DNA from: Tumebacillus algifaecis
Lineage (GTDB): Bacteria > Bacillota > Bacilli > Tumebacillales > Tumebacillaceae
Assembly (NCBI RefSeq): GCF_002243515.1
Contig: NZ_CP022657.1
Location: 2,657,001-2,721,000, forward strand
DNA length: 64,000 bases
Reading direction: 5' to 3'
Shown here: piece after piece, positions 42,542 to 52,591 of the stretch
How positions within the stretch are numbered: the stretch's first letter is position 1
How the letters are laid out: the number at the start of each line of letters is the position of its first letter
The notes under the pieces: generated by a model
Databases searched by the model: none
What the model saw: only the letters and a program-made list of their open reading frames with translations
What the model was told of the DNA's origin: nothing
Program-made: the position numbers and the translations under genes

Positions 42542-42619
42542 GCCACTACCTCTCGAATTTTACAGGATTTTGAATTATTTCGAACATATCATTCTTTTCG
42601 ACAAATGGCAAACAAAAAA

Positions 42620-42645
42620 TGCCGTCTGCAAAGTCACAGACGACA
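42620..42645 (-). terminator. Terminator of the peptide-nucleotidyltransferase-MFS operon
   Basis: On the minus strand TGTCGTCTG pairs with CAGACGGCA around GACTTTG, followed by TTTTTTG. It begins directly after the MFS stop codon. Confidence 0.85.
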
Positions 42646-42646
42646 T

Positions 42647-43891
42647 CTATGAAATCTCCTGTAATTTATTTTTCATACTGAGCAAAGCCAGCATCAAAAA
42701 CATCAGCGAAGCCGTAAGAAAAATAAAGTGCACCTCGATGTATTCCCCGCACACCCCACCGAGAAACAACCCGATTGGAGCGGCGATCCGCGCCAGCATC
42801 GACGTGGTGCCAGAGACGCGACCCAGCATATGATTGGGCGTCACTTCCTGACGAATCGTGTGGATATGGATGTTGGAAAACGTCGAAGCAGCGCCCAGAA
42901 TGAACAGCCCGACGGCCAAAATCAGCCAATGCGCGGATAAAAACAGCACCGACTGACCCAACGCCGCCGTCAGTATGGCGCCGATCAGCAGTTTGCCGCG
43001 CCGTCCCCATTTCAGGCTCGGCTTGGCGACAAAAGTCGAACACATGCTGCCAAGCGCCGATGCGGACAGCACCAATCCAAGTGAACTTGATGCCAAATGC
43101 AGTTTATCGAGCGCATAAAAGACGATGACCGCACCAGCGAACGAAGATACAAAGTTCACACCGAGCACGAGCAGCGTGATCGTGAACAACTCCTTGGTCA
43201 AGAGCAGTTGTTTCCAGCCTTCACGCATCTCCTCACGAATCGATGTTTTACGCCCTTCTGGCGATGGCGGCTTTTCCACTTTAGGCAATTTCATCAACGA
43301 AGTGAACATGAACAGGATCAGAAAGCCACCGATCGTGATCAACAGTCCTAGGCGATAGTTCATCACGAGGAGTAGGCTACCTGCGATCGAAGGTCCAGCC
43401 ATGGAGATCACAGTGCCCCAAAAGTTGATCGTCGCATTGGCCGACACATAGTGCTCCCGCTCCATCAACAGCGGTACAATACTGGTCGTTGAGTTTGAGA
43501 ACACATAGCCAAACGTCGTCAAACAAAATCCGAGCAGATACAAAACCCAGATCTTCGCCAATCCTGCTGTGAGCAAGCCGAACATCAACAGCAAGATGGC
43601 GATTTGCAACGCCACAGCAGCCAGCATCAGTCGCTTGCGGTCGAAGCGATCGACAATCACGCCGACCAACATGCCAAACAGCACATATGGCAACATGTTC
43701 ATGACCGCCATCGAACTCATCGCCAGCGTCGAACGAGACAGATCATAAATCATCAGCGGCAGTCCCAGCGTGTAAATGTGAAACGTCAGCCCGGAGAAGC
43801 AACTGCCAACCCACAAGTACAAAAACTGGCGATTGCGCCATAACGATTTGGGTTTCGCTACAGAGTTGACCTGAGCAAGCGGTGTGCTCAC
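42647..43891 (-). CDS. MFS transporter, probable exporter of the peptide-locus product
   Basis: About 414 residues and 12 hydrophobic segments with the MFS_3/enterobactin-exporter-like layout. The loop 2-3 motif is GMLVGVIVDRFDRKRLM, a typical MFS motif A. GTG 43891 has GGGGA nine bases upstream; GTG 43900 overlaps the upstream stop (GTGA) but its site is too close. The gene directly follows the nucleotidyltransferase and ends at a terminator, so it belongs to the same transcript as the six small peptides. It probably exports the mature product or protects the host from it. The sequence does not fix a substrate. Confidence 0.88.
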   Translation of the reverse strand: MSTPLAQVNSVAKPKSLWRNRQFLYLWVGSCFSGLTFHIYTLGLPLMIYDLSRSTLAMSSMAVMNMLPYVLFGMLVGVIVDRFDRKRLMLAAVALQIAILLLMFGLLTAGLAKIWVLYLLGFCLTTFGYVFSNSTTSIVPLLMEREHYVSANATINFWGTVISMAGPSIAGSLLLVMNYRLGLLITIGGFLILFMFTSLMKLPKVEKPPSPEGRKTSIREEMREGWKQLLLTKELFTITLLVLGVNFVSSFAGAVIVFYALDKLHLASSSLGLVLSASALGSMCSTFVAKPSLKWGRRGKLLIGAILTAALGQSVLFLSAHWLILAVGLFILGAASTFSNIHIHTIRQEVTPNHMLGRVSGTTSMLARIAAPIGLFLGGVCGEYIEVHFIFLTASLMFLMLALLSMKNKLQEIS

Positions 43892-43896
43892 AGATC

Positions 43897-45153
43897 TCAC
43901 TCCCCGCTAGAAGCCGCACAGTGCTGTGCGATCGCCGCGTCGAGTTCGAGCAATTCCTCGCGTGTTTCCAATCCAAAGCAGCTGGTCACATACCAACCGA
44001 CAGGCGAGCGGACGACCATCTTCCCTTGCAAGCGAACCCAAGCGTATTCGCCAGGTGTACCGCTCGGCACAGGGATCAAATGCGCCATCATGCGCAATTT
44101 GTAGCGTGGCAACGTAGGGAGCAATTTTTCAAAAAAGCGAACCAGCTTCAACTTCTCACGCTTGGACACCAGTTTCGTCAGCTTGTTGCGGTAGATGTTG
44201 AGCACTTCGAGCAACAGCGCGTTGAACAGACCGCCGTTGTCCACATTGTACGGAATGTAATGGTAAAGACGCTTACGCCATACGTTTTGTTTGACAAACA
44301 ATCTATTAGAGAAACCCTCGAGCATAAAATCGGGGATGTTCGCTTTCTGTCCGGAAACCTGCTCATAGTACTGCACCAACTGATAGAATTCCATATTCAA
44401 ATGATGGCCTTTTAAACGCTCGTGCAATTTTACATAATCAAGGTTGGGAGCTTCCAGTAGCAAGTATAAATCGACCGCATCGCGCAACCTAAAAATTTTG
44501 TTGCCCACCGATTCTCCGGTGAGGATCAAGATCATGTCTTCGGCAGACGGAATCGGAACTTTTACACCATTTACCAACGTTGTTCGTGCTTCGCTCCAAA
44601 AGTCACCGGACAGCCAACTGACCTCGCCCATGACAAAAGAGCCGATGCTCACTTCCAATTCGAGCATCGTGTTCTCATCGATGCGCTTATAAAAACCAGC
44701 AGCACCAACCACTTCACCGTGCAACTGACAAATCGCCGGTGCATTTTGGTAATCGAATCCAATCCCTTCGATCAAAGCGATCAATTTCCAAAAATCATCG
44801 ACCGATGGGACGACCAGGTCATAGTCGCCCATTTGACGCGGGCAACCTTCTGGGTAGAGATTTTTCATGGCGTTGCCTTTTATGTGAATATAGCGAACAC
44901 CATTTTCATTTAATACCTGCGCAACTTGGGCGAACAGTTCATCCTGAGCCGCACGGTTCCGCACCCGCTCTGTATAGTCTTCGTGCAGTCCCATCGATTG
45001 CTCCAATTGCAGGATTGGCACCATCATCTTGTTGTCATTGGCGATCTTTTTGACCTCTTCCTTTAAGCCTTCGTATTCGCGGATCAGTTCCTCGTTTTTC
45101 TTATCGGGGGTCAGAGCCAGACGATACAAAAACGGAAGTAGCTGTTGTTGCAC
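43897..45153 (-). CDS. NTP_transf_5-type nucleotidyltransferase
   Basis: 418 residues. Residues 85-120 hold the family core: HIKGNAM...YPEG..RQMGDYDLVV, with the two metal-binding aspartates of GDYD at 110 and 112. The middle has further acidic motifs and the C-terminal half is helical and basic. GTG start with AAAGGAGTG seven bases upstream. This family is uncharacterised. Members are known next to lasso-peptide genes in Bacillales, often with a kinase. Here it follows the six-peptide array after a hairpin, so peptide nucleotidylation or phosphotransfer is a reasonable inference. It could instead act on a phosphonate made by the divergent PEP mutase. Confidence 0.82.
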   Translation of the reverse strand: MQQQLLPFLYRLALTPDKKNEELIREYEGLKEEVKKIANDNKMMVPILQLEQSMGLHEDYTERVRNRAAQDELFAQVAQVLNENGVRYIHIKGNAMKNLYPEGCPRQMGDYDLVVPSVDDFWKLIALIEGIGFDYQNAPAICQLHGEVVGAAGFYKRIDENTMLELEVSIGSFVMGEVSWLSGDFWSEARTTLVNGVKVPIPSAEDMILILTGESVGNKIFRLRDAVDLYLLLEAPNLDYVKLHERLKGHHLNMEFYQLVQYYEQVSGQKANIPDFMLEGFSNRLFVKQNVWRKRLYHYIPYNVDNGGLFNALLLEVLNIYRNKLTKLVSKREKLKLVRFFEKLLPTLPRYKLRMMAHLIPVPSGTPGEYAWVRLQGKMVVRSPVGWYVTSCFGLETREELLELDAAIAQHCAASSGE

Positions 45154-45186
45154 AATGGTTCACTCCTTTAGCACTTAACATCAGGA

Positions 45187-45215
45187 GAAAGGAGAGGAAG
45201 ACTTCCTCTCCTTTC
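45187..45215 (-). other. Perfect 14-base inverted repeat between peptide array and nucleotidyltransferase
   Basis: GAAAGGAGAGGAAG (45187-45200) and its exact complement (45202-45215) flank a single base, giving an RNA stem of 12-13 bp. No T run follows on the minus strand. The likely role is to protect the 3' end of an abundant peptide mRNA or partially attenuate transcription into the enzyme genes, as happens in many peptide clusters. The stem contains GGAGAGG but no start codon follows at a useful distance. Confidence 0.6.
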
Positions 45216-45235
45216 CAATCAAATGAAACGAATCA

Positions 45236-45331
45236 CTACTTGCGGATGTTTACAAAATCAGTCTGCGGCAAAACGAAACCTTTGCGGACGTCGATAAAGT
45301 TCGGCAGTTCCATCACGATTGTGCGCTCCAT
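45236..45331 (-). CDS. Paired-DIRK peptide 6 (last in array, 31 aa)
   Basis: ATG 45329-45331 follows AAAGGAGGTGCCC, as good a ribosome site as any in the window; the stop is TAG. The product starts MERTIVMELPNFIDVRKG and ends with a second motif copy, DFVNIRK. It is the most diverged member of the group that has MELPxF in the first half. It has no signal peptide, no cysteine and no serine. Six neighbouring ORFs share this layout, which is strong evidence for coding. Its stop lies 20 bases before the inverted repeat that separates the array from the nucleotidyltransferase. Confidence 0.85.
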   Translation of the reverse strand: MERTIVMELPNFIDVRKGFVLPQTDFVNIRK

Positions 45332-45380
45332 AGTGGGCACCTCCTTTTTCTTGCAGGACGAGTCTTTTCGTCGTGCAAAA

Positions 45381-45479
45381 TTACTTCTTGCGGATGTCGA
45401 TGTACTCATGCGTGTACATAACGAGACCTTTGCGGATGTCGTTGAAGTACGGCAGTTCCATTACGAGTTTGCGCTCCAT
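45381..45479 (-). CDS. Paired-DIRK peptide 5 (32 aa)
   Basis: ATG 45477-45479 is preceded by GAAAGGAGGTGCACAAC. The first half reads MERKLVMELPYFNDIRKG and the second ends THEYIDIRKK, so each half closes with an aromatic residue, one spacer and D-I-R-K. It is nearly identical to peptides 3 and 4, from which it differs only around residues 21-24 (MYTH here). It is one of three 147-bp tandem units. No function is known to me. It lacks Cys and Ser, which argues against lanthionine, azole or sactipeptide chemistry. Confidence 0.88.
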   Translation of the reverse strand: MERKLVMELPYFNDIRKGLVMYTHEYIDIRKK

Positions 45480-45527
45480 GTTGTGCACCTCCTTTCAATT
45501 AAATCTCGGTAAATATAGGAAGAAAAA

Positions 45528-45626
45528 TTACTTCTTGCGGATGTCGATGTACTCAGGCGTGTGCAAAACGAGACCTTTGCGGATGTCGTTGAAGTACGGC
45601 AGTTCCATTACGAGTTTGCGCTCCAT
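45528..45626 (-). CDS. Paired-DIRK peptide 4 (32 aa)
   Basis: Two ATG codons stand in a row (45629 and 45626). The second keeps the same length and the same eight-base spacing to GGAGG as in the sister genes, so I take 45626. The first half is identical to peptides 3 and 5; the second half differs in LHTPEYIDIRKK (Leu and Pro in place of Met and His). The conserved parts are therefore MELPYFNDIRKG and EYIDIRKK, and the variable part is the short linker between them. Confidence 0.88.
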   Translation of the reverse strand: MERKLVMELPYFNDIRKGLVLHTPEYIDIRKK

Positions 45627-45674
45627 CATGTGCACCTCCTTTCAATTAAATCTTGGTGAATGTAAGAAGCAAAA

Positions 45675-45773
45675 TTACTTCTTGCGGATGTCAATGTACT
45701 CATGCGTGTGCATAACGAGACCTTTGCGGATGTCGTTGAAGTACGGCAGTTCCATTACGAGTTTGCGCTCCAT
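45675..45773 (-). CDS. Paired-DIRK peptide 3 (32 aa)
   Basis: ATG 45771-45773 follows AAAGGAGGTGCACAAC. It differs from peptides 4 and 5 only in the linker (MHTHEYIDIRKK). It is the most upstream of the 147-bp units. The 108 bases between it and peptide 2 contain no further member, only a remnant-like AT-poor stretch with no motif copy. Confidence 0.88.
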   Translation of the reverse strand: MERKLVMELPYFNDIRKGLVMHTHEYIDIRKK

Positions 45774-45881
45774 GTTGTGCACCTCCTTTACAACATTTTT
45801 TCCGAGATATCGAACTAGTGTGACGCACCACCAAGATCGTCTGATGTTGCTGAAACATTGCTCGACATTCCGGGATCATCA

Positions 45882-45977
45882 TTACTTGCGGATATCGATA
45901 AACAATACCGGTTCTTGCCAGTACTCTTTACGGATGTCGAAAAATTCAACAGGCTCTTGCCAACGGTTACGTTCCAT
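45882..45977 (-). CDS. Paired-DIRK peptide 2 (31 aa), openly duplicated halves
   Basis: ATG 45975-45977 follows GAGAGGAGGTGCACAAT. The two halves are near-copies of each other: RWQEPVEFFDIRK and YWQEPVLFIDIRK. This shows that the family arose by internal duplication of a 13-15 residue unit, W-x-E-P-V-x-F-x-D-I-R-K. The unit resembles the start of the PQQ precursor PqqA (W-x-K-P-x-F-x-D-L-R). It has no Cys, Ser or Thr. Confidence 0.88.
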   Translation of the reverse strand: MERNRWQEPVEFFDIRKEYWQEPVLFIDIRK

Positions 45978-46020
45978 ATTGTGCACCTCCTCTCCCAGCT
46001 AAGGCGTGTCCGATCCAATG

Positions 46021-46113
46021 TTACTTACGGATTTCGATGAACTCCGGCATCGTGATTGCGATACTGCGGATGTCAACAAATTCTACCGGTTGTGCTACGC
46101 GGTTACGGAACAT
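46021..46113 (-). CDS. Paired-DIRK peptide 1 (first in array, 30 aa)
   Basis: ATG 46111-46113 follows GGGAGGTGTCC. The first half is MFRNRVAQPVEFVDIRS and the second closes with MPEFIEIRK, so the motif is kept with I-E-I-R-K and D-I-R-S variants. It carries one Ser and no Cys. It is the promoter-proximal gene, about 75 bases after the predicted transcription start. Codon use and ribosome site match the other five. Confidence 0.85.
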   Translation of the reverse strand: MFRNRVAQPVEFVDIRSIAITMPEFIEIRK

Positions 46114-46170
46114 GGTGGACACCTCCCTTAACACTTAATTAGGGACGGAAAATTTAGCAAGTTTAGTGCC

Positions 46171-46199
46171 TTGAAAAAACTTTCCGTTTACTCTATTAT
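46171..46199 (+). promoter_or_regulatory. Sigma-A promoter for the PEP mutase arm
   Basis: TTGAAA (46171-46176), a 17-base spacer and TATTAT (46194-46199): each box is 5 of 6 to consensus with ideal spacing. Transcription should start near 46206, leaving a leader of about 110 bases. The -10 overlaps that of the opposite promoter. Confidence 0.75.
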
Positions 46200-46222
46200 A
46201 TAAATAATCAGAAAATAATCAA
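46195..46222 (-). promoter_or_regulatory. Sigma-A promoter for the peptide array
   Basis: On the minus strand TTGATT (46217-46222), a 16-base spacer and a perfect TATAAT (46195-46200). Transcription should start near 46188, about 75 bases before peptide 1. Its -10 shares six bases with the plus-strand -10. Confidence 0.75.
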
Positions 46223-46316
46223 GCGAAGATTTGAATGTTTTTCAGTCGAATTGATTGGTGAATATTCTATACGTAAACAAAAATTATATATAAAATTCGG
46301 AAGGGTGGGAATTGAG

Positions 46317-47198
46317 ATGAACCCGAGAAAACGATTGCGCAGTCTGATGCAGGAGCCGGATCGCATCATCCAAACGGTAGGGGCGCACAACGCGTTGGGA
46401 GCAAAGTTGGTGGAGCAGCACGGATTTGATGCGGTATGGGCGAGCGGATTTGAGATCTCCACAGCCCATGCCAAACCGGATGCAAACATCTTGACCATGG
46501 TCGAATTTCTTGAAGCTGCACGTCAGATGACCGATGCCACCCACTTACCGATCATCGCAGACTGTGACACCGGATTTGGCAATGTGAACAACGTGATCCG
46601 CATGGTGCGCGATTATGAGAAAGCGGGCATTGCAGCCGTCTGTATTGAAGATAAAGTCTTTCCAAAGATGAATTCCTTCATCCCAGGCTTCCAAACGCTC
46701 GCTCCCAAAGATGAATTTTCAGCCAAGATTCGCGCAGCAAAAGACACACAGCGCGACCCTGATTTTGTGGTGATCGCCCGCGTCGAGTCGTTGATCGCAG
46801 GACATGGGATGGAAGAGTCACTCGAACGTGCGGCCGCTTATGAGGAAGCGGGCGCCGATCTCATTTTGATCCATTCCAAACAAAAAGATCCCGGAGAGAT
46901 CTTCGAATTCAGCCGCCGCTGGAACTCCGACACACCGCTGGTTATCGTGCCAACCACTTACCCGAGCATCACGCTGACCGAAATGATCGAACATAACGTC
47001 AAAATGGTCATCTATGCCAACCAAGCGTTGCGGGCGGCGGTCAAGGCCATGAATCAAGTCCTTGCCCAGCTCAAAGAGTCTGGGTCGTTGCTTGCGATTC
47101 AAGATCAATTAAGCCCGATGGATCAACTTTTTGAACTACAAGGGTTGAAAGACATGATCAAACAAGAAGAACAGTACCGCAGACAAGAGGTCAGATAA
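46317..47198 (+). CDS. pepM: Phosphoenolpyruvate mutase
   Basis: 293 residues from ATG 46317, with AAGGGTGGGA upstream; upstream in-frame codons lack a site and run into the promoter. The active-site order matches known PEP mutases: WASGFEIS near 41, ADCDTGFGN at 81-89 and EDKVFPKMNS at 111-120. The EDKxxPKxNS gating-loop motif separates PEP mutases from isocitrate/methylisocitrate lyases and oxaloacetate hydrolases. The enzyme converts PEP to phosphonopyruvate, the entry to nearly all natural phosphonates. Equilibrium favours PEP, so a follow-up step is needed, yet no phosphonopyruvate decarboxylase, transaminase or reductase is encoded here. The thymidylate-kinase-like gene follows on the same strand, and the nucleotidyltransferase, peptides and exporter diverge. 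Confidence 0.93.
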   Translation: MNPRKRLRSLMQEPDRIIQTVGAHNALGAKLVEQHGFDAVWASGFEISTAHAKPDANILTMVEFLEAARQMTDATHLPIIADCDTGFGNVNNVIRMVRDYEKAGIAAVCIEDKVFPKMNSFIPGFQTLAPKDEFSAKIRAAKDTQRDPDFVVIARVESLIAGHGMEESLERAAAYEEAGADLILIHSKQKDPGEIFEFSRRWNSDTPLVIVPTTYPSITLTEMIEHNVKMVIYANQALRAAVKAMNQVLAQLKESGSLLAIQDQLSPMDQLFELQGLKDMIKQEEQYRRQEVR

Positions 47199-47265
47199 GA
47201 GGAGCGGTTAGAATTTGACAGCCAACGATTGCAAGCTGTTGCAATCTCGAAAGGAGTGCAGGAAC

Positions 47266-47889
47266 TTGAAACCGTTTTTGGTTATTGAAGGTGTAGATGG
47301 CACCGGAAAAAGCACCGTCTGTGCAGCTTTGGAGCAGGAACAAGGGGCTGCATTTTATAAAGGGATGTCACCAGAGTGGCGCGATTTCCGCGATTTTGTC
47401 GATGAAGATGCGGATGACGATTCGCGCCTGCTATACTATTTTGCTTCGTGTATGTACACGTCGGGCAAAGTAAAAAAATCTGGTGAAAAAGTGCCGGTGA
47501 TCTGTCACCGCTATTTTGCAACCTATATGGCGATCTATTCTCTGAACACCGGAACGCCGCTGGAGAAAGTGCTCGAGGCGTTTGCACCGATCCGCGAGCG
47601 CATGGTCACGCCGCACCTGTCGATTTTATTGACGGCAGACCACGAAGAATTGAAACGCCGCCTGCTCGCCCGTGTCGATGAACTAAAAGCGACCGATATG
47701 CGGGTCGTCAACTCGCACGAATATACCTTAAACTTCGAAGCGGCTCTGCGAGCAGTGATGAGTTGGGACGGGCCCTACATCGTTTTGGACACGACCGGCA
47801 AAACACCGGAACAAGTCGTGTCCGAGGTTCGTCAGCTCTGTGTCCAGCACATTCCCGGCTGGCCAACGGTCATCGAATCGTCCAACTAA
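47266..47889 (+). CDS. Thymidylate-kinase-like P-loop kinase
   Basis: 207 residues from TTG 47266 (AAGGAG nine bases upstream). An in-frame TTG at 47215 also has a GAGGAG site and would add 17 residues that the family lacks, so the later start is preferred. The Walker A motif is EGVDGTGKST, and the fold follows thymidylate kinases (about 205-215 aa). The DRY motif that follows strand 3 is HRY here (VICHRYFATYMA), and the LID region is short (RLLARVDELKATD). That loss of the Asp argues against a housekeeping dTMP kinase. Because it shares a transcript with PEP mutase, phosphorylation of a phosphonate or nucleotide intermediate is possible, but this is inference. Confidence 0.8.
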   Translation: MKPFLVIEGVDGTGKSTVCAALEQEQGAAFYKGMSPEWRDFRDFVDEDADDDSRLLYYFASCMYTSGKVKKSGEKVPVICHRYFATYMAIYSLNTGTPLEKVLEAFAPIRERMVTPHLSILLTADHEELKRRLLARVDELKATDMRVVNSHEYTLNFEAALRAVMSWDGPYIVLDTTGKTPEQVVSEVRQLCVQHIPGWPTVIESSN

Positions 47890-47890
47890 C

Positions 47891-47932
47891 ACACAAGAAG
47901 AGTATCCCAGACCTGGGATACTCTTCTTGTGT
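47891..47932. terminator. Bidirectional terminator
   Basis: A perfect 20-bp stem (47891-47910 with 47913-47932, loop of two) separates the convergent kinase gene and XRE-TPR gene. The arm GAAGAG/CTCTTC gives modest T-rich flanks in both directions. Stem length alone makes it a strong barrier. Confidence 0.75.
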
Positions 47933-47946
47933 GTTCTACACCAGTC

Positions 47947-49221
47947 TTACAACGCGATGCCGCGCTTTTGCAGATCTCCCATCAAATAATCGTGGAGTTG
48001 CTCCCAGCGGCGTGCAGACTCTTCGTATTTCCCTTGACGGTTGAGGAGACGGCAGAGTTTGCGGGTACCTTCCTCCAATTCGGAGGTCATGCCATACTGT
48101 TCGAACAATGCGAGCGCACGGTCGAGATGGGCCTGACCTTTTTGATCATCTTCTCGCTCAAAGAAGATCAGTGCTAGCAACTGATGGACTCGGCCCATGC
48201 ACGGATGAAGTTCCGGCAAGCTCATTCGTGCCTTTTCCGCGTACTCACACGCTTCATCGATCGCCTCGTTCGTCAGCAAAATGGTGGCGATATCCGCATA
48301 CAGCTCTCCGACCTTCGCACCTTCACAATGGTTGGTCATGGCGAGTAGCTCCTGTACGGAAGCTCTCCAGTCGATTCGATCGCGCTTGAGCAACACCGCT
48401 CTGCGCTTCCAGTCCTGATTGTGCCGAGTGTTTTCTTCCTCTTCCAGCAAGATCGTAGCCTTGGTCGCATATTCATCCGCCTTGAGGTAGTTCTTTTGAC
48501 GGTAGTAGGCGTCTGCAAGCTTCAGCATCATCTTGCCTCGATCCTCCGCTTCTACCACCTGCAACGCCGCATTCCAACATTCTGCTGCTTTGTTTACCTG
48601 GCCGGTCTTCTCATGAACGTTCGCCAATTGTACCAACACTTTTGCCTGAAGCGCCGGGTCAGGCAGCTCAATCTTTTTCAATTCCTCAAGCGCACGCTCG
48701 GTGTGATATAAAGAGATTGAATATTCGCTCTTTTTTAGTGCATCCAGCCCCATATGGAGATACACTTTGGACAGCAGCTCTCCATCCTGCCGCAGAATCG
48801 CCAAGCCCTGCACCTCGTTCAAGAATGACATCGCCTCCGCGGCCCGTCCAACTTGGAGCAAGGAGAAGGCCAATTCCACCTGCACGTCCATCTTCGGAAT
48901 CTGCTGGTCGGTGCTGTCGAGCAATTCCTGCAACTGCGTGATCGCCAACCCGTACTCCTTGGCTCGCACCAGCCCTTTCGCCATCTTATATTTGGTGATG
49001 TCTGCCAGATCGAGTTCAACATCTTTCAGCAAAAAGTCGAGTGGCACGCCCAATTTCTCTGCAATCCCAAACAATATTTTATACGAAGGAGTGGTTCTGT
49101 CCGACTCGATTTGCGAAATCATACTCGGCGTACAAATTCCATCTGCCAGCCCAATCTGGGTCATCCCCTTCTTCACTCTCAACTCACGAATTCTTTGTCC
49201 CAACGATGTCATCATTTTCAT
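47947..49221 (-). CDS. XRE-family HTH regulator with TPR repeats
   Basis: 424 residues (or 422 from the ATG at 49215, which is better spaced from GAGGAGG). Residues 8-62 form an XRE HTH (RIRELRVKKGMTQIGLADGICTPSMISQIESDR). The rest is helical with repeated TPR-like pairs through to the C-terminus. This is the RRNPP-like architecture (PlcR, NprR, PrgX) in which the TPR part binds a short peptide or protein. It converges on the PEP mutase arm and is therefore not in that transcript. It may control it, but no pheromone-type ORF with a signal peptide is adjacent. Confidence 0.88.
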   Translation of the reverse strand: MKMMTSLGQRIRELRVKKGMTQIGLADGICTPSMISQIESDRTTPSYKILFGIAEKLGVPLDFLLKDVELDLADITKYKMAKGLVRAKEYGLAITQLQELLDSTDQQIPKMDVQVELAFSLLQVGRAAEAMSFLNEVQGLAILRQDGELLSKVYLHMGLDALKKSEYSISLYHTERALEELKKIELPDPALQAKVLVQLANVHEKTGQVNKAAECWNAALQVVEAEDRGKMMLKLADAYYRQKNYLKADEYATKATILLEEEENTRHNQDWKRRAVLLKRDRIDWRASVQELLAMTNHCEGAKVGELYADIATILLTNEAIDEACEYAEKARMSLPELHPCMGRVHQLLALIFFEREDDQKGQAHLDRALALFEQYGMTSELEEGTRKLCRLLNRQGKYEESARRWEQLHDYLMGDLQKRGIAL

Positions 49222-49253
49222 CGTACCTCCTCAGCGGTGAATGTCTTGAACAC

Positions 49254-49262
49254 ATTGTAACA
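49254..49262 (-). promoter_or_regulatory. Extended -10 promoter of the XRE-TPR gene
   Basis: Minus strand TGTTACAAT: a TG-n motif and TACAAT (5 of 6), about 33 bases before the start codon. A TTGACC lies ten bases upstream, too close to be its -35. Confidence 0.4.
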
Positions 49263-49352
49263 AGAAACGGGTCAACTTTGATATATTTACAGACCATGTT
49301 ATTGCAGGAAAAAAAAACGACAGAAGTTGTCTGACAATTCGCCTCCTTCAAC

Positions 49353-49376
49353 AAAAAAAGCCCCTAAAAAGGGGCT
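49353..49376 (-). terminator. Terminator of the three-gene XRE paralogue operon
   Basis: Minus strand AGCCCC-TTTTTA-GGGGCT followed by TTTTTT. It lies about 120 bases after the stop of the short HTH gene. Confidence 0.88.
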
Positions 49377-49493
49377 CGTATTCGCACTTATCGTTTAAAA
49401 GTGTCTGTAAGGTATCTGAGCCTAGCCTATGTATCGTCTTGTATCATCAAAAAATGGAACCTGTAACTTCTCATCTAACGAATCAAAAAACGG

Positions 49494-49769
49494 CTAGATC
49501 TTCTCTTTTGGATCCTGCTCCCACGATTCTGCCTGCAAGATTCGTGCAACAGGCACATTTAGGTCCTGTGCGATTTTCTCCAACATAACGAGATAGATCG
49601 CCCGATCCCCGGTTAACATCAGCCGTAATGTTTCCCTGCTAATACTCAGGCGTTTTGCCATTGCGGAAAGACTGAAGGAGCTTTCCTTCTCCTTCATGAT
49701 CTCCCGGATTCGTCTCAACCGTGGAATCTGATCTGCATTTGTATGTGTCGGTGCCATAAGTTGGCTCAT
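49494..49769 (-). CDS. HTH-only XRE paralogue (91 aa)
   Basis: The 91 residues match the N-terminal domain of the two genes upstream almost position for position (MSQLMAPTHT, IPRLRRIREIMKEKESS, then an HTH with SMAKRLSISRETLRLML). It stops just where the TPR part of the paralogues begins. GGTGAGGG precedes the ATG. It lies 25 bases after its long sister gene. It could be a truncated duplicate that still binds the same operator and competes with the full-length forms, or a decaying copy; the intact frame favours function. Confidence 0.8.
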   Translation of the reverse strand: MSQLMAPTHTNADQIPRLRRIREIMKEKESSFSLSAMAKRLSISRETLRLMLTGDRAIYLVMLEKIAQDLNVPVARILQAESWEQDPKEKI

Positions 49770-49794
49770 CTACGGTTCCCTCACCTTCCATCTA

Positions 49795-50973
49795 CTAAAA
49801 ATTCTTGTCGAGCGGGAAACGTTTTTTCGTCAATCTCCCCTTCGATTTTCGGGTCAACACATGCCACTGCTGCAAAAACTCTTTTTGCTTAAAGGCAATC
49901 GTCAGATAGCGATACGCAAGGTACCTGCTCTTTTTCGGGTAGCTCAGATTCCGCGCCACGCCATCCGCATACCGGGTGTCTTGAGTGGCCCGGGACAGTA
50001 AGATTAGCATTCTTGCTTTTAAATCCAAGTTTTGATCAATAGGTTCCGATTGTAACGTTTTGCGAATTATTGACTCGGCTGCCTGAAATTCATGTAGTTT
50101 GATATACACTTTCGCCAATGCCTTAAACCCGCTCAGACGTACAATTTCATTTTCCCAATATTCGATCGAACCCGCGATTAGATCTCTTGCTTTCCTGTAG
50201 TTGAGATCAGCATATTCAGCCCAGGCGACATTGAGATAGGCCCGACCAATCCGATCACGATTCGTAGTTGTCAAATATAGTTCCAAACATTTATAGAGAT
50301 ACATTTTGGCTTCTTTATGTTCAAACGATGAGTACTTCATTTTGGCAAGTGCAACATACAAAACACCATGATTAAGCGGATCATTCTGCAAATAGGGCTC
50401 CACTTGCTCTTTGATCTCAAGTACTTTATCAAACTCATCAGTATGTGCATAAACATTCAAAAACAGGACCAAGCATCTGGAATATAATGCCTCATCTTGA
50501 TAGTCCTGTTTGATTTTTTCTGCAATCACGTACAATTCTTGTAGATATTGCTTCGCTTTATCGAAATCCTGTTTCCAGAAACAGATGTATGCAATTGCAG
50601 AGAGGCTGAATGCTCTTTCCGACATACCGATCGATACAACGTGTCGAGCTTCGACTAGTTCCATGGCCTTCCCTAACTGGTTCTGTGTAATAAGTTGACG
50701 ACGAAGGTCATTATTATTTTGTGCATGCAAATCTTCTTGCAACAATCGAGGCAGCTGCACTTTCAAATCTTGGGCAATCTTCTCTAATTCAAAGTTGTAG
50801 ATCTCGCGTTCACCATTCAACATCAGCCGCAATGTCTCCCTGCTCATCCCAAGCCGTGCTGACATCGCTGTAATGCTGTAGGAACTGCCTTTTTCCTTCA
50901 TAATCTCGCGAATTCGCCGCCAGAGCGGAATCTTATCTTCATACGTATGTGTAGGTGCTGTAAGTTGGCTCAT
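49795..50973 (-). CDS. XRE-HTH/TPR regulator, paralogue B
   Basis: 392 residues. The start has AGGAG seven bases upstream. The N-terminal HTH (RIREIMKEKGSSYSITAMSARLGMSRETLRLMLNGER, near 15-55) is followed by a linker and about ten helices with TPR-like spacing, ending in a basic tail (KGRLTKKRFPLDKNF). It is closely related to the gene at 50990-52159 and lies 16 bases downstream of it. This architecture suits a ligand-responsive repressor or activator. Its targets and ligand are unknown. Confidence 0.85.
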   Translation of the reverse strand: MSQLTAPTHTYEDKIPLWRRIREIMKEKGSSYSITAMSARLGMSRETLRLMLNGEREIYNFELEKIAQDLKVQLPRLLQEDLHAQNNNDLRRQLITQNQLGKAMELVEARHVVSIGMSERAFSLSAIAYICFWKQDFDKAKQYLQELYVIAEKIKQDYQDEALYSRCLVLFLNVYAHTDEFDKVLEIKEQVEPYLQNDPLNHGVLYVALAKMKYSSFEHKEAKMYLYKCLELYLTTTNRDRIGRAYLNVAWAEYADLNYRKARDLIAGSIEYWENEIVRLSGFKALAKVYIKLHEFQAAESIIRKTLQSEPIDQNLDLKARMLILLSRATQDTRYADGVARNLSYPKKSRYLAYRYLTIAFKQKEFLQQWHVLTRKSKGRLTKKRFPLDKNF

Positions 50974-50989
50974 TCATTTTCTCCTGCCA

Positions 50990-52159
50990 TTACATATTGT
51001 TATCCAGCGAAAAAAGACGTTTCGAGTTACTCCGTTGCACCCTTGCTGACCGTGACCGACCCAGCCTTAGTATTCCTTTGTAATATCGATTGAGATAGCG
51101 CGATGCGATAAACCGTTCCTTCTTGTTGTATTGCATACCGGAGACGACTGCTTCCGCATAGCCAGGATTCCCTGTAGCTCGAAACAATAAGATAAGAAGC
51201 AAAGCTTTCACGTCCAGATGTTCAACAATCCGATCCGATTGTAAAGCTGACCGAATTACTTCCTCCGCTGCACGATTTTCTTTGAGTTTGATTAGCGTTT
51301 TTGCCAAACCTTTCTTCGCCAGAAACCAAATTTGGACAGACGGATCCGTTCTAAATACAGCTTCAAAAAGTTCTTTTGCTTTCTCATACTCGCGTGTGAC
51401 ATATTCAATGTACGCAATATTCATGTATCCTCGTCCGATCCTATCCGTAACCTTTGACAGCAAAAATTGTTCATGACTTTTGTAGAAATACATTTTCGCA
51501 TCGGCCAGTTCATACCTCGATAATTCCATTCTAGCAAGCGTATAATACACCAATCCCATTAGAGGCGTATCGCGAAAAATTGGTTCGACCAATTCTATGA
51601 GTTCGAGCGCTTTGTCAAATTGCCCCATATTTGCATAGCAGTTCAAGAGATTATTCAGCGCTTTCTCAAGTATTTTGCTATCTTGATACTTCTTGTTAAT
51701 TTCTTCTGCCATTGCATAAAATTCCAAACAATGTCGAGTTGCTTCTTCTAATTCGCCCTTCCAGAAGTGTACAAGTTGTAACCTGTTGGTCGCCTCTGCG
51801 CGCTCTGAGAGACCAATTGCAACATCGTTATGCTCCCTAGCGGCGCGCATCGACTCCTCCCACTGGCCATTAGATATATACTTCGAAAACTGTTTATCAC
51901 TATGATAGTGCATCAAATCCGCTTGCGTTAGACGTGTCAACGGCACTTTCAAATCTTGTGCGATCTGCTCCAACTCGAATGTGTAAAGCCCGCGTTCGCC
52001 ACTCAGCATCACTCGCAGTGTCTCACGGCTCATACCAAGACGACTTGCCATGGCTGACATGCTGTAGGAACTTCCTTTTTCTTTCATGATCTCTCGAATC
52101 CGCCGTCCCAGCGGAATTTGATCTACATAGGTATGCGTTGGCGCATCTAATTGGCTCAT
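50990..52159 (-). CDS. XRE-HTH/TPR regulator, paralogue A
   Basis: About 389 residues from ATG 52159, chosen because the paralogues all begin MSQL.APTHT and GGGGA then has a seven-base spacing; an ATG two codons earlier is too close to that site. The HTH is SAMASRLGMSRETLRVMLSGER. TPR-like helices and a basic C-terminus (SNSKRLFSLDNNM) follow. It is the first gene of a three-gene paralogue operon that ends at the 49353-49376 terminator. The shared C-terminal F[PS]LD.N. motif in A and B suggests a functional tail. Confidence 0.85.
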   Translation of the reverse strand: MSQLDAPTHTYVDQIPLGRRIREIMKEKGSSYSMSAMASRLGMSRETLRVMLSGERGLYTFELEQIAQDLKVPLTRLTQADLMHYHSDKQFSKYISNGQWEESMRAAREHNDVAIGLSERAEATNRLQLVHFWKGELEEATRHCLEFYAMAEEINKKYQDSKILEKALNNLLNCYANMGQFDKALELIELVEPIFRDTPLMGLVYYTLARMELSRYELADAKMYFYKSHEQFLLSKVTDRIGRGYMNIAYIEYVTREYEKAKELFEAVFRTDPSVQIWFLAKKGLAKTLIKLKENRAAEEVIRSALQSDRIVEHLDVKALLLILLFRATGNPGYAEAVVSGMQYNKKERFIASRYLNRYYKGILRLGRSRSARVQRSNSKRLFSLDNNM

Positions 52160-52591
52160 GTTCATTCCCCTGTCATCGCTCGTTTAAAGTTGACTGTCGA
52201 ACAGATATCGTTTTTGGTCTGACTTCATGAACGATTCGCATACGGTTGTCGTCCTCTTTGAAGGTGTCACGTGCAAAGAGGAATGAGGAGCGACTCTTTC
52301 ACCACAGCAGAAGCCGCTTGAAACTGGGTTGAGCGGGTGCCGCCTAATGGCGCCTCTTGATCCACTGCCATTTCTTGAACGACGATTCCAATATAGAAAA
52401 GTATACGAATCTCATTAATATTAGCATAGCTTATTTTGCAGAATAATTCCTCATACCTAACCGGAAAATTCTGTACTATATCGAATAAATAACAAATGTA
52501 TAACTACGATTCAAGGCGTTTTATATCGAAAATATTTGTGATATGATAAGGTAGTAATTTCCCACCCTCATTCTGAGAGGAGATGCTGCTA
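52160..52591. promoter_or_regulatory. Divergent intergenic region between XRE operon and orphan 189-aa gene
   Basis: These 432 bases hold no firm gene. The right half is AT-rich and includes a weak plus-strand promoter (TTTATA at 52520-52525, 16-base spacer, TATGAT at 52542-52547). The left half is GC-richer and has a 34-codon minus-strand ORF (52267-52371, starting MAVDQEAPLGG) without a ribosome site, which I do not call as a gene. Confidence 0.4.

Follow-up and report, generated by a model that had tools for sequence, protein, structure and literature searches.

A locus of Tumebacillus algifaecis in which six tandem peptide genes share a promoter region with the gene of a phosphoenolpyruvate (PEP) mutase was analyzed in a window of 64,000 nt (NZ_CP022657.1, 2,657,001-2,721,000; genome label G000:C1). 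Tumebacillus species are soil bacteria, and the T. algifaecis genome consists of a single contig of 4.5 Mb. On the minus strand, the peptide genes are followed by the genes of a PF14907 nucleotidyltransferase (NTase) and a major facilitator superfamily (MFS) exporter, and on the plus strand, the PEP mutase gene is followed by that of a P-loop kinase (Table 1). A preliminary description of the sequence had placed these five gene types here, and they were borne out by family matches, open reading frames (ORFs), and ribosome sites, as was the 147-nt repeat unit of the peptide array. Orthologues reset the start of the PEP mutase to ATG 46317 instead of TTG 46251 and that of the window kinase to TTG 47266 instead of 47215. 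An ORF of 209 amino acids (aa) on the opposite strand (45373-46002) was ruled out as a gene, being the mirror image of the peptide repeats.

The locus was compared among three Tumebacillus species, represented by the window genome (G000) and two others (G001 and G002). The promoter region that the preliminary description had assigned to both arms was found as two overlapping divergent promoter-like sites, and approximately 50 bases around them were almost invariant across the three species. The strong terminators proposed for the two ends were seen in part: the left one is a canonical hairpin with a T-run, whereas the right one is a strong, perfect hairpin without a long T-run. A corresponding inverted repeat lies at the same place as the right-hand hairpin in both other species.

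Table 1. Features of the peptide-PEP mutase locus (window positions) and of the second locus (positions with the prefix G000:C1)
Feature	Position	Strand	Evidence
Intrinsic terminator ending the peptide-NTase-MFS arm	42617..42648	-	Canonical: -17.7 kcal/mol, z -5.5, then T-run
MFS exporter, 417 aa	42647..43900	-	PF07690, E 1.3e-32; 82-83% identity to both other species (blastp)
PF14907 NTase, 418 aa	43897..45153	-	PF14907, E 8.5e-19; 4-nt overlap with MFS gene
Peptide 6, MERTIVMELPNFIDVRKGFVLPQTDFVNIRK	45236..45331	-	ORF, ribosome site, profile match
Peptide 5, MERKLVMELPYFNDIRKGLVMYTHEYIDIRKK	45381..45479	-	ORF, ribosome site, profile match
Peptide 4, MERKLVMELPYFNDIRKGLVLHTPEYIDIRKK	45528..45626	-	ORF, ribosome site, profile match
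Peptide 3, MERKLVMELPYFNDIRKGLVMHTHEYIDIRKK	45675..45773	-	ORF, ribosome site, profile match
Peptide 2, MERNRWQEPVEFFDIRKEYWQEPVLFIDIRK	45882..45977	-	ORF, ribosome site, profile match
Peptide 1, MFRNRVAQPVEFVDIRSIAITMPEFIEIRK	46021..46113	-	ORF, ribosome site, profile match
Overlapping divergent promoter-like sites	46171..46222	both	TTGAAA-17-TATTAT, 46171-46199 (+); TTGATT-16-TATAAT, 46222-46195 (-)
PEP mutase, 293 aa	46317..47198	+	TIGR02320, 324 bits; EDKVFPKMNS; 85-88% identity to both other species
P-loop kinase, 207 aa, dTMP-kinase-like	47266..47889	+	Weak dTMP kinase match; 82-83% identity to both other species
Perfect 22-bp hairpin between convergent genes	47888..47935		-37.3 kcal/mol, z -9.5; no long T-run
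Second-locus operon	G000:C1:2227999-2231408		Ppd-alpha, Ppd-beta, FomA-like kinase, dTMP-kinase-like protein, 3-hydroxyisobutyrate-dehydrogenase (HIBADH)-type enzyme
RhiEF-like split decarboxylase (Ppd-alpha, Ppd-beta)	G000:C1:2227999-2229065		9iz3 as best PDB match

Both G001 and G002 keep the order of the locus, with PEP mutase and kinase divergent from peptides, NTase, and MFS exporter. The six peptides and the promoter block are likewise kept in 3/3 species, and neither arm was found alone in any genome. The sister genus is represented by four genomes, all of which retain the gene on the left side of the locus (37-40% identity) among different neighbors and have no cassette enzymes. These results support the earlier claim that the two arms form one unit. 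Two unrelated modules could instead share the promoter region by chance, in which case the peptide arm would be unconnected to phosphonates. Within the genus, synteny runs past the locus on both sides, so that co-occurrence is not independent evidence; however, a close NTase, a close kinase, and an 85% identical PEP mutase each occur in exactly the same three genomes, and all three enzymes are missing from the sister genus, which retains the left flank. A chance association is therefore improbable in our view. The cassette genes come and go together, yet in one lineage with conserved flanks, which is one event and not three.

The preliminary description had proposed that unrelated genomes be searched for the same five gene types. 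No unrelated genome with the set was found, and hence the case for one system rests on one genus. The only parallel outside Tumebacillus came from one genome (G615), in which a PEP mutase gene lies 2 kb from that of a distant-branch PF14907 protein in a rhizocticin-like cluster. It was rejected as the same system, since its PF14907 protein and the window NTase share 23% identity over 152 aa (E 0.14) and no such peptide occurs in the 20 kb inspected. Besides the PF14907 gene, this cluster (L029, G615:C11:128001-148000) contains an HprK-like kinase gene, a PhyH-like gene, and two ATP-grasp genes.

Tandem HTH-TPR regulator genes adjoin the locus in all three species (window 47947-52165; L007:166-7185 in G001 and L008:787-6927 in G002). 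The peptides might be signals to these regulators in an RNPP-like manner, with the NTase and MFS protein processing and exporting them and with PEP mutase and kinase as the target operon. Adjacency in 3/3 species is what such a role would predict, but the peptides have no export signal, RNPP systems need no NTase, and the HTH-TPR family is numerous elsewhere (18 to 31 matches to the 424-aa member per Tumebacillus genome); the probability of a signaling role is accordingly low. Farther to the left, the window contains a large multi-module cluster (327-30143, minus strand) with six genes of up to 2390 aa, which by eye resembles nonribosomal peptide synthetase/polyketide synthase clusters, and a separate operon (30-42.5 kb) lies between this cluster and the peptide locus.

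The window PEP mutase passed the TIGR02320 equivalog cut-off (324 vs 319.55 bits) and scored 100 bits under the phosphonopyruvate hydrolase cut-off. Its EDKxxxxxNS signature is present as EDKVFPKMNS in all three species, and its best PDB match was PEP phosphomutase, ahead of phosphonopyruvate hydrolase. Relatives with more than 60% identity were found in 3/300 genomes, all Tumebacillus; the closest proteins outside the genus (56-58% identity) belong to G615 and G619, and in the PEP mutase tree, the branches were too long and not numerous enough for a placement of the window copy.

The PEP mutase equilibrium favors PEP, and a pulling step is therefore required; none is encoded at the window locus. 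A search for phosphonopyruvate decarboxylase revealed two short adjacent proteins, corresponding to split subunits, in all three Tumebacillus genomes. The best PDB match of both subunits (1e-57 and 1e-61) was 9iz3, the phosphonopyruvate decarboxylase RhiEF of rhizocticin biosynthesis (PMC12141560). In a survey of 45 genomes, the beta subunit was present in 13/13 genomes whose PEP mutase match was strong (E below 1e-70) and in 0/32 others, the sister genus among the latter (exact odds 1.4e-11, kinship ignored). The window-locus copy is the only strong PEP mutase match in G001 and G002, and because no second one exists there, the pairing with the decarboxylase is unambiguous in these two genomes. 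Since a RhiEF-like decarboxylase tracks the PEP mutase, the phosphonate role given to this enzyme in the preliminary description is supported, and the window PEP mutase most likely supplies a genuine phosphonate pathway; from the family scores and this co-distribution, we strongly infer both its activity and its coupling to the decarboxylase. The isocitrate lyase superfamily also has lyases and hydrolases of similar fold, and the protein might be one of these, making no carbon-phosphorus (C-P) bond, but the equivalog score, the signature motif, and the decarboxylase co-distribution make this very improbable.

A second PEP mutase, also with 324 bits to TIGR02320, is encoded in G000 within L009:5415-14011 (G000:C1:149415-158011), and no such copy occurs in G001 or G002. 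Its neighbors encode an orotate-PRTase-like protein, two archaeal-type GAPDH-like proteins, ribose-5-phosphate isomerase, a phosphoglycerate-dehydrogenase-like protein, phosphoglycerate kinase, and ribulose-phosphate epimerase. This gene row is perhaps a separate phosphonate pathway derived from sugar-metabolism paralogues.

The split decarboxylase belongs to an unlinked operon of five genes, which are adjacent in G001 and G002 too (68-84% identity). Its amino-acid-kinase-family protein had FomA as best PDB match (111 bits); FomA phosphorylates the phosphonate fosfomycin. The two dTMP-kinase-like proteins, one from each locus, share only approximately 20% identity, indicating that they are not recent duplicates. 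Apart from a single 8-mer, the two loci showed no common regulatory motif. In the sister genus, Ppd-beta, the sole second-locus gene searched there, was not found.

The six tandem peptides of the window (45236-46113, minus strand) are 30-32 aa long, and each is preceded by a GGAGGTG ribosome site just upstream of its ATG at proper spacing. Seventeen peptides from the three species were aligned, that is, all except the sixth peptide of G001 (L007:9519), which was found last. The [FY]-x-[DEN]-[IV]-R motif occurs precisely twice in every aligned peptide, at a spacing of 13 or 14 residues; Arg is conserved in 34/34 motif copies and Asp in 32/34, and the remainder of the peptide varies. Among their 524 residues are 0 Cys, 2 Ser, and 13 Thr. 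Amino acid changes occur at approximately half the rate of silent ones (pN 0.13 and pS 0.26, from a pool that includes a few comparisons between repeats within the window), suggesting that purifying selection acts on the peptide sequence.

A profile of the peptides matched the six window copies at E 7e-15 to 4e-19. In a phylum sample of 398 genomes, real matches were listed in the window genome alone; the other 397 gave nothing convincing, with one weak match (E 0.004) inside a 691-aa frame. Over all loci retrieved, true peptides scored at least 55 bits and everything outside Tumebacillus at most 10 bits. No relatives of the peptides were found in plasmids, and no Pfam or NCBIfam family covers them, with only sub-threshold chance matches. 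Between peptides 4 and 5 of G001, a 17-aa fragment (L007:9662-9715; profile E 8e-9) is perhaps a decayed seventh peptide.

Short precursor genes adjoining a candidate modifying enzyme and an exporter, as at this locus, are the arrangement seen in ribosomally synthesized and post-translationally modified peptide (RiPP) clusters. The peptides could also be scaffolds or carriers, on which a phosphonate is built or to which it is attached before release (PEARL or LysW type); the D-[IV]-R repeats would then be docking sites outside the product. Retention of the repeat motif in an otherwise variable peptide would suit such a role, and an MFS protein fits a small product better than a 30-mer. However, no PEARL-like, ATP-grasp, or peptidase gene was recognized at either locus, and we judge a carrier function to be distinctly unlikely.

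The window NTase scored 68.5 bits against the PF14907 gathering cut-off of 31.2, and its G-D-Y-D motif (D110, D112) is invariant in the three species. Close relatives occur in 3/399 Bacilli genomes, all Tumebacillus, the next protein being a 24% identical one in G003; no NTase relative was found in plasmids, phages, or viral contigs. The close relatives of the window kinase have the same distribution (3/399 Bacilli genomes, all Tumebacillus), and none was found in viral contigs. The PADLOC models VakA and PDC-M51B matched the window kinase at 1e-16 to 1e-18, and its distant plasmid relatives adjoin radical SAM proteins, one of them annotated as viperin. These matches suggest that the window protein is a nucleoside-monophosphate-type kinase with a part in unusual nucleotide chemistry. 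A phosphonate that carries a phosphate would look much like a substrate of this type, an observation compatible with the model favored below and no proof of it. On a Streptomyces albidoflavus plasmid (L041, NZ_CP109086.1), a dTMP-kinase-like gene adjoins a radical SAM gene, with a NUDIX hydrolase gene nearby and lasso B2 genes a few kb away.

The NTase might modify the peptides with a nucleotide or a sugar-phosphate, as PsmN-type enzymes may, the phosphonate being a separate, co-regulated small molecule exported by the MFS protein. Within Bacilli, PF14907 proteins abound in one family, and their genes are frequent in genomes that lack PEP mutase; in at least one other genome, such a gene adjoins HPr-kinase-like and PqqD-like genes. 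Furthermore, the window kinase resembles nucleotide kinases, and PsmN adds hexose groups on phosphoserine (PMC9266682). No HPr-kinase-like gene lies at the window locus, however, and the promoter block, the gene order, and the strict co-inheritance are a tighter tie than two independent products need. Such a division of labor appears unlikely on balance.

We tentatively favor the reading that the locus encodes one of the two halves of a phosphonate pathway and that the product of this pathway comes together with the ribosomal peptide family, although we rate it somewhat short of probable; it is preferred because it explains the joint need for PEP mutase, kinases, NTase, and peptides. In this model, the window PEP mutase would convert PEP to phosphonopyruvate, which the unlinked RhiEF-like decarboxylase would turn irreversibly into phosphonoacetaldehyde, and the HIBADH-type enzyme of the second operon would probably reduce the latter to 2-hydroxyethylphosphonate. 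Stepwise phosphorylation of this product by the FomA-like kinase and by the dTMP-kinase-like enzyme of each locus would then yield R-P-P-P, a compound resembling a nucleoside triphosphate (NTP). The PF14907 NTase could use R-P-P-P as donor, releasing pyrophosphate and leaving the phosphonyl group on the peptides, and the MFS protein could export the modified peptide or a fragment of it. The route from PEP to phosphonoacetaldehyde is well supported by homology and by the co-distribution of its enzymes; we infer the reduction to 2-hydroxyethylphosphonate and the two phosphorylations from protein families, and which phosphonate is made, in which order the kinases act, and whether the peptide is the NTase substrate are matters of conjecture. 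The peptides may carry phosphonate or nucleotide groups. The PF14907 gene beside HPr-kinase-like and PqqD-like genes and the modification of a phosphorylated ribosomal peptide by PsmN (PMC9266682) speak for the favored model as well. The narrower proposal, a new ribosomal peptide class in which a polymerase-beta-type NTase transfers the phosphonyl group of a kinase-built NTP mimic onto the D-[IV]-R repeats, is rather unlikely. Of the original interpretation, one unit and a PEP mutase of phosphonate metabolism were retained, whereas the pathway is only partly encoded at this locus, the decarboxylase, FomA-like kinase, and reductase being encoded elsewhere.

Several observations weigh against the favored model. 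The three Tumebacillus genomes are not independent, and peptides and phosphonates are tied only by the common promoter region and by joint inheritance within a single genus. The peptides have no visible leader/core split, and no protease was seen. The FomA-like kinase passes the cut-off for isopentenyl phosphate kinase (145 vs 120 bits), and its substrate might accordingly be a phosphate ester. No solved structure is close to the window kinase (E 0.002), and the kin of this kinase beside viperin-like genes point to nucleoside monophosphates as substrates. AlphaFold models of the NTase and the window kinase were too poor for use (pLDDT 41 and 48).

A literature search, with a coverage lacking most subscription journals, found no system joining ribosomal peptides to PEP mutase, and we know of none that has been described. 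The system would be categorically new only if the peptides belong to the pathway; otherwise, the remainder would be a new form of a phosphonate gene set. If the peptides do carry phosphonates, they would be the first C-P-bearing ribosomal peptide class, and FomA-like and dTMP-kinase-like enzymes would gain a role as donor builders for an NTase. The weaker reading would still provide a two-locus phosphonate pathway with a kinase cascade, and no phosphonate pathway is described for Tumebacillus in the literature searched.

Among known systems, rhizocticin-type clusters are similar in that the closest outside PEP mutases and split decarboxylases (51-52% identity for the latter) lie with aldolase, threonine-synthase-like, and ATP-grasp genes in such clusters, and RhiEF is the best solved match of the Tumebacillus decarboxylase. 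In contrast, the Tumebacillus pathway is split over two loci, lacks these three accompanying gene types at both, and has ribosomal peptides and FomA-like and dTMP-kinase-like kinases instead; the poorly resolved PEP mutase tree gives no proof of kinship. With the fosfomycin kinases FomA and FomB, the system shares the FomA-like protein of the second locus and two kinases that could act in series, whereas its second kinase is dTMP-kinase-like and not FomB, and no fosfomycin epoxidase or methylase gene was recognized at either locus. The window kinase likewise matches the viperin-associated kinase VakA and has relatives whose genes adjoin those of radical SAM proteins or viperin, but the identity is only approximately 25%, and the window locus has no radical SAM protein.

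No lasso peptide B protease or C cyclase was found among the locus genes. The peptides lack Cys and have sparse Ser/Thr, and no LanM, YcaO, or radical SAM enzyme of the lanthipeptide, azole, or sactipeptide type lies at the locus. The features tested place the locus outside the lasso peptide, lanthipeptide, sactipeptide, and rhizocticin-type clusters, and its gene content is that of part of a phosphonate pathway. In pseudomycoidin, the annotated nucleotidyltransferase PsmN decorates a phosphorylated ribosomal peptide with hexose groups (PMC9266682). The Tumebacillus locus resembles the pseudomycoidin and paeninodin clusters (PsmN, PsmK) in having a nucleotidyltransferase gene in a ribosomal peptide cluster. 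Unlike these clusters, it has neither a lasso cyclase nor a leader protease gene and no gene of PqqD or HPr-kinase-like type, and its peptides lack the C-terminal Ser modified by the kinases of these clusters. PsmN is the closest experimental precedent for an NTase that would modify peptides.

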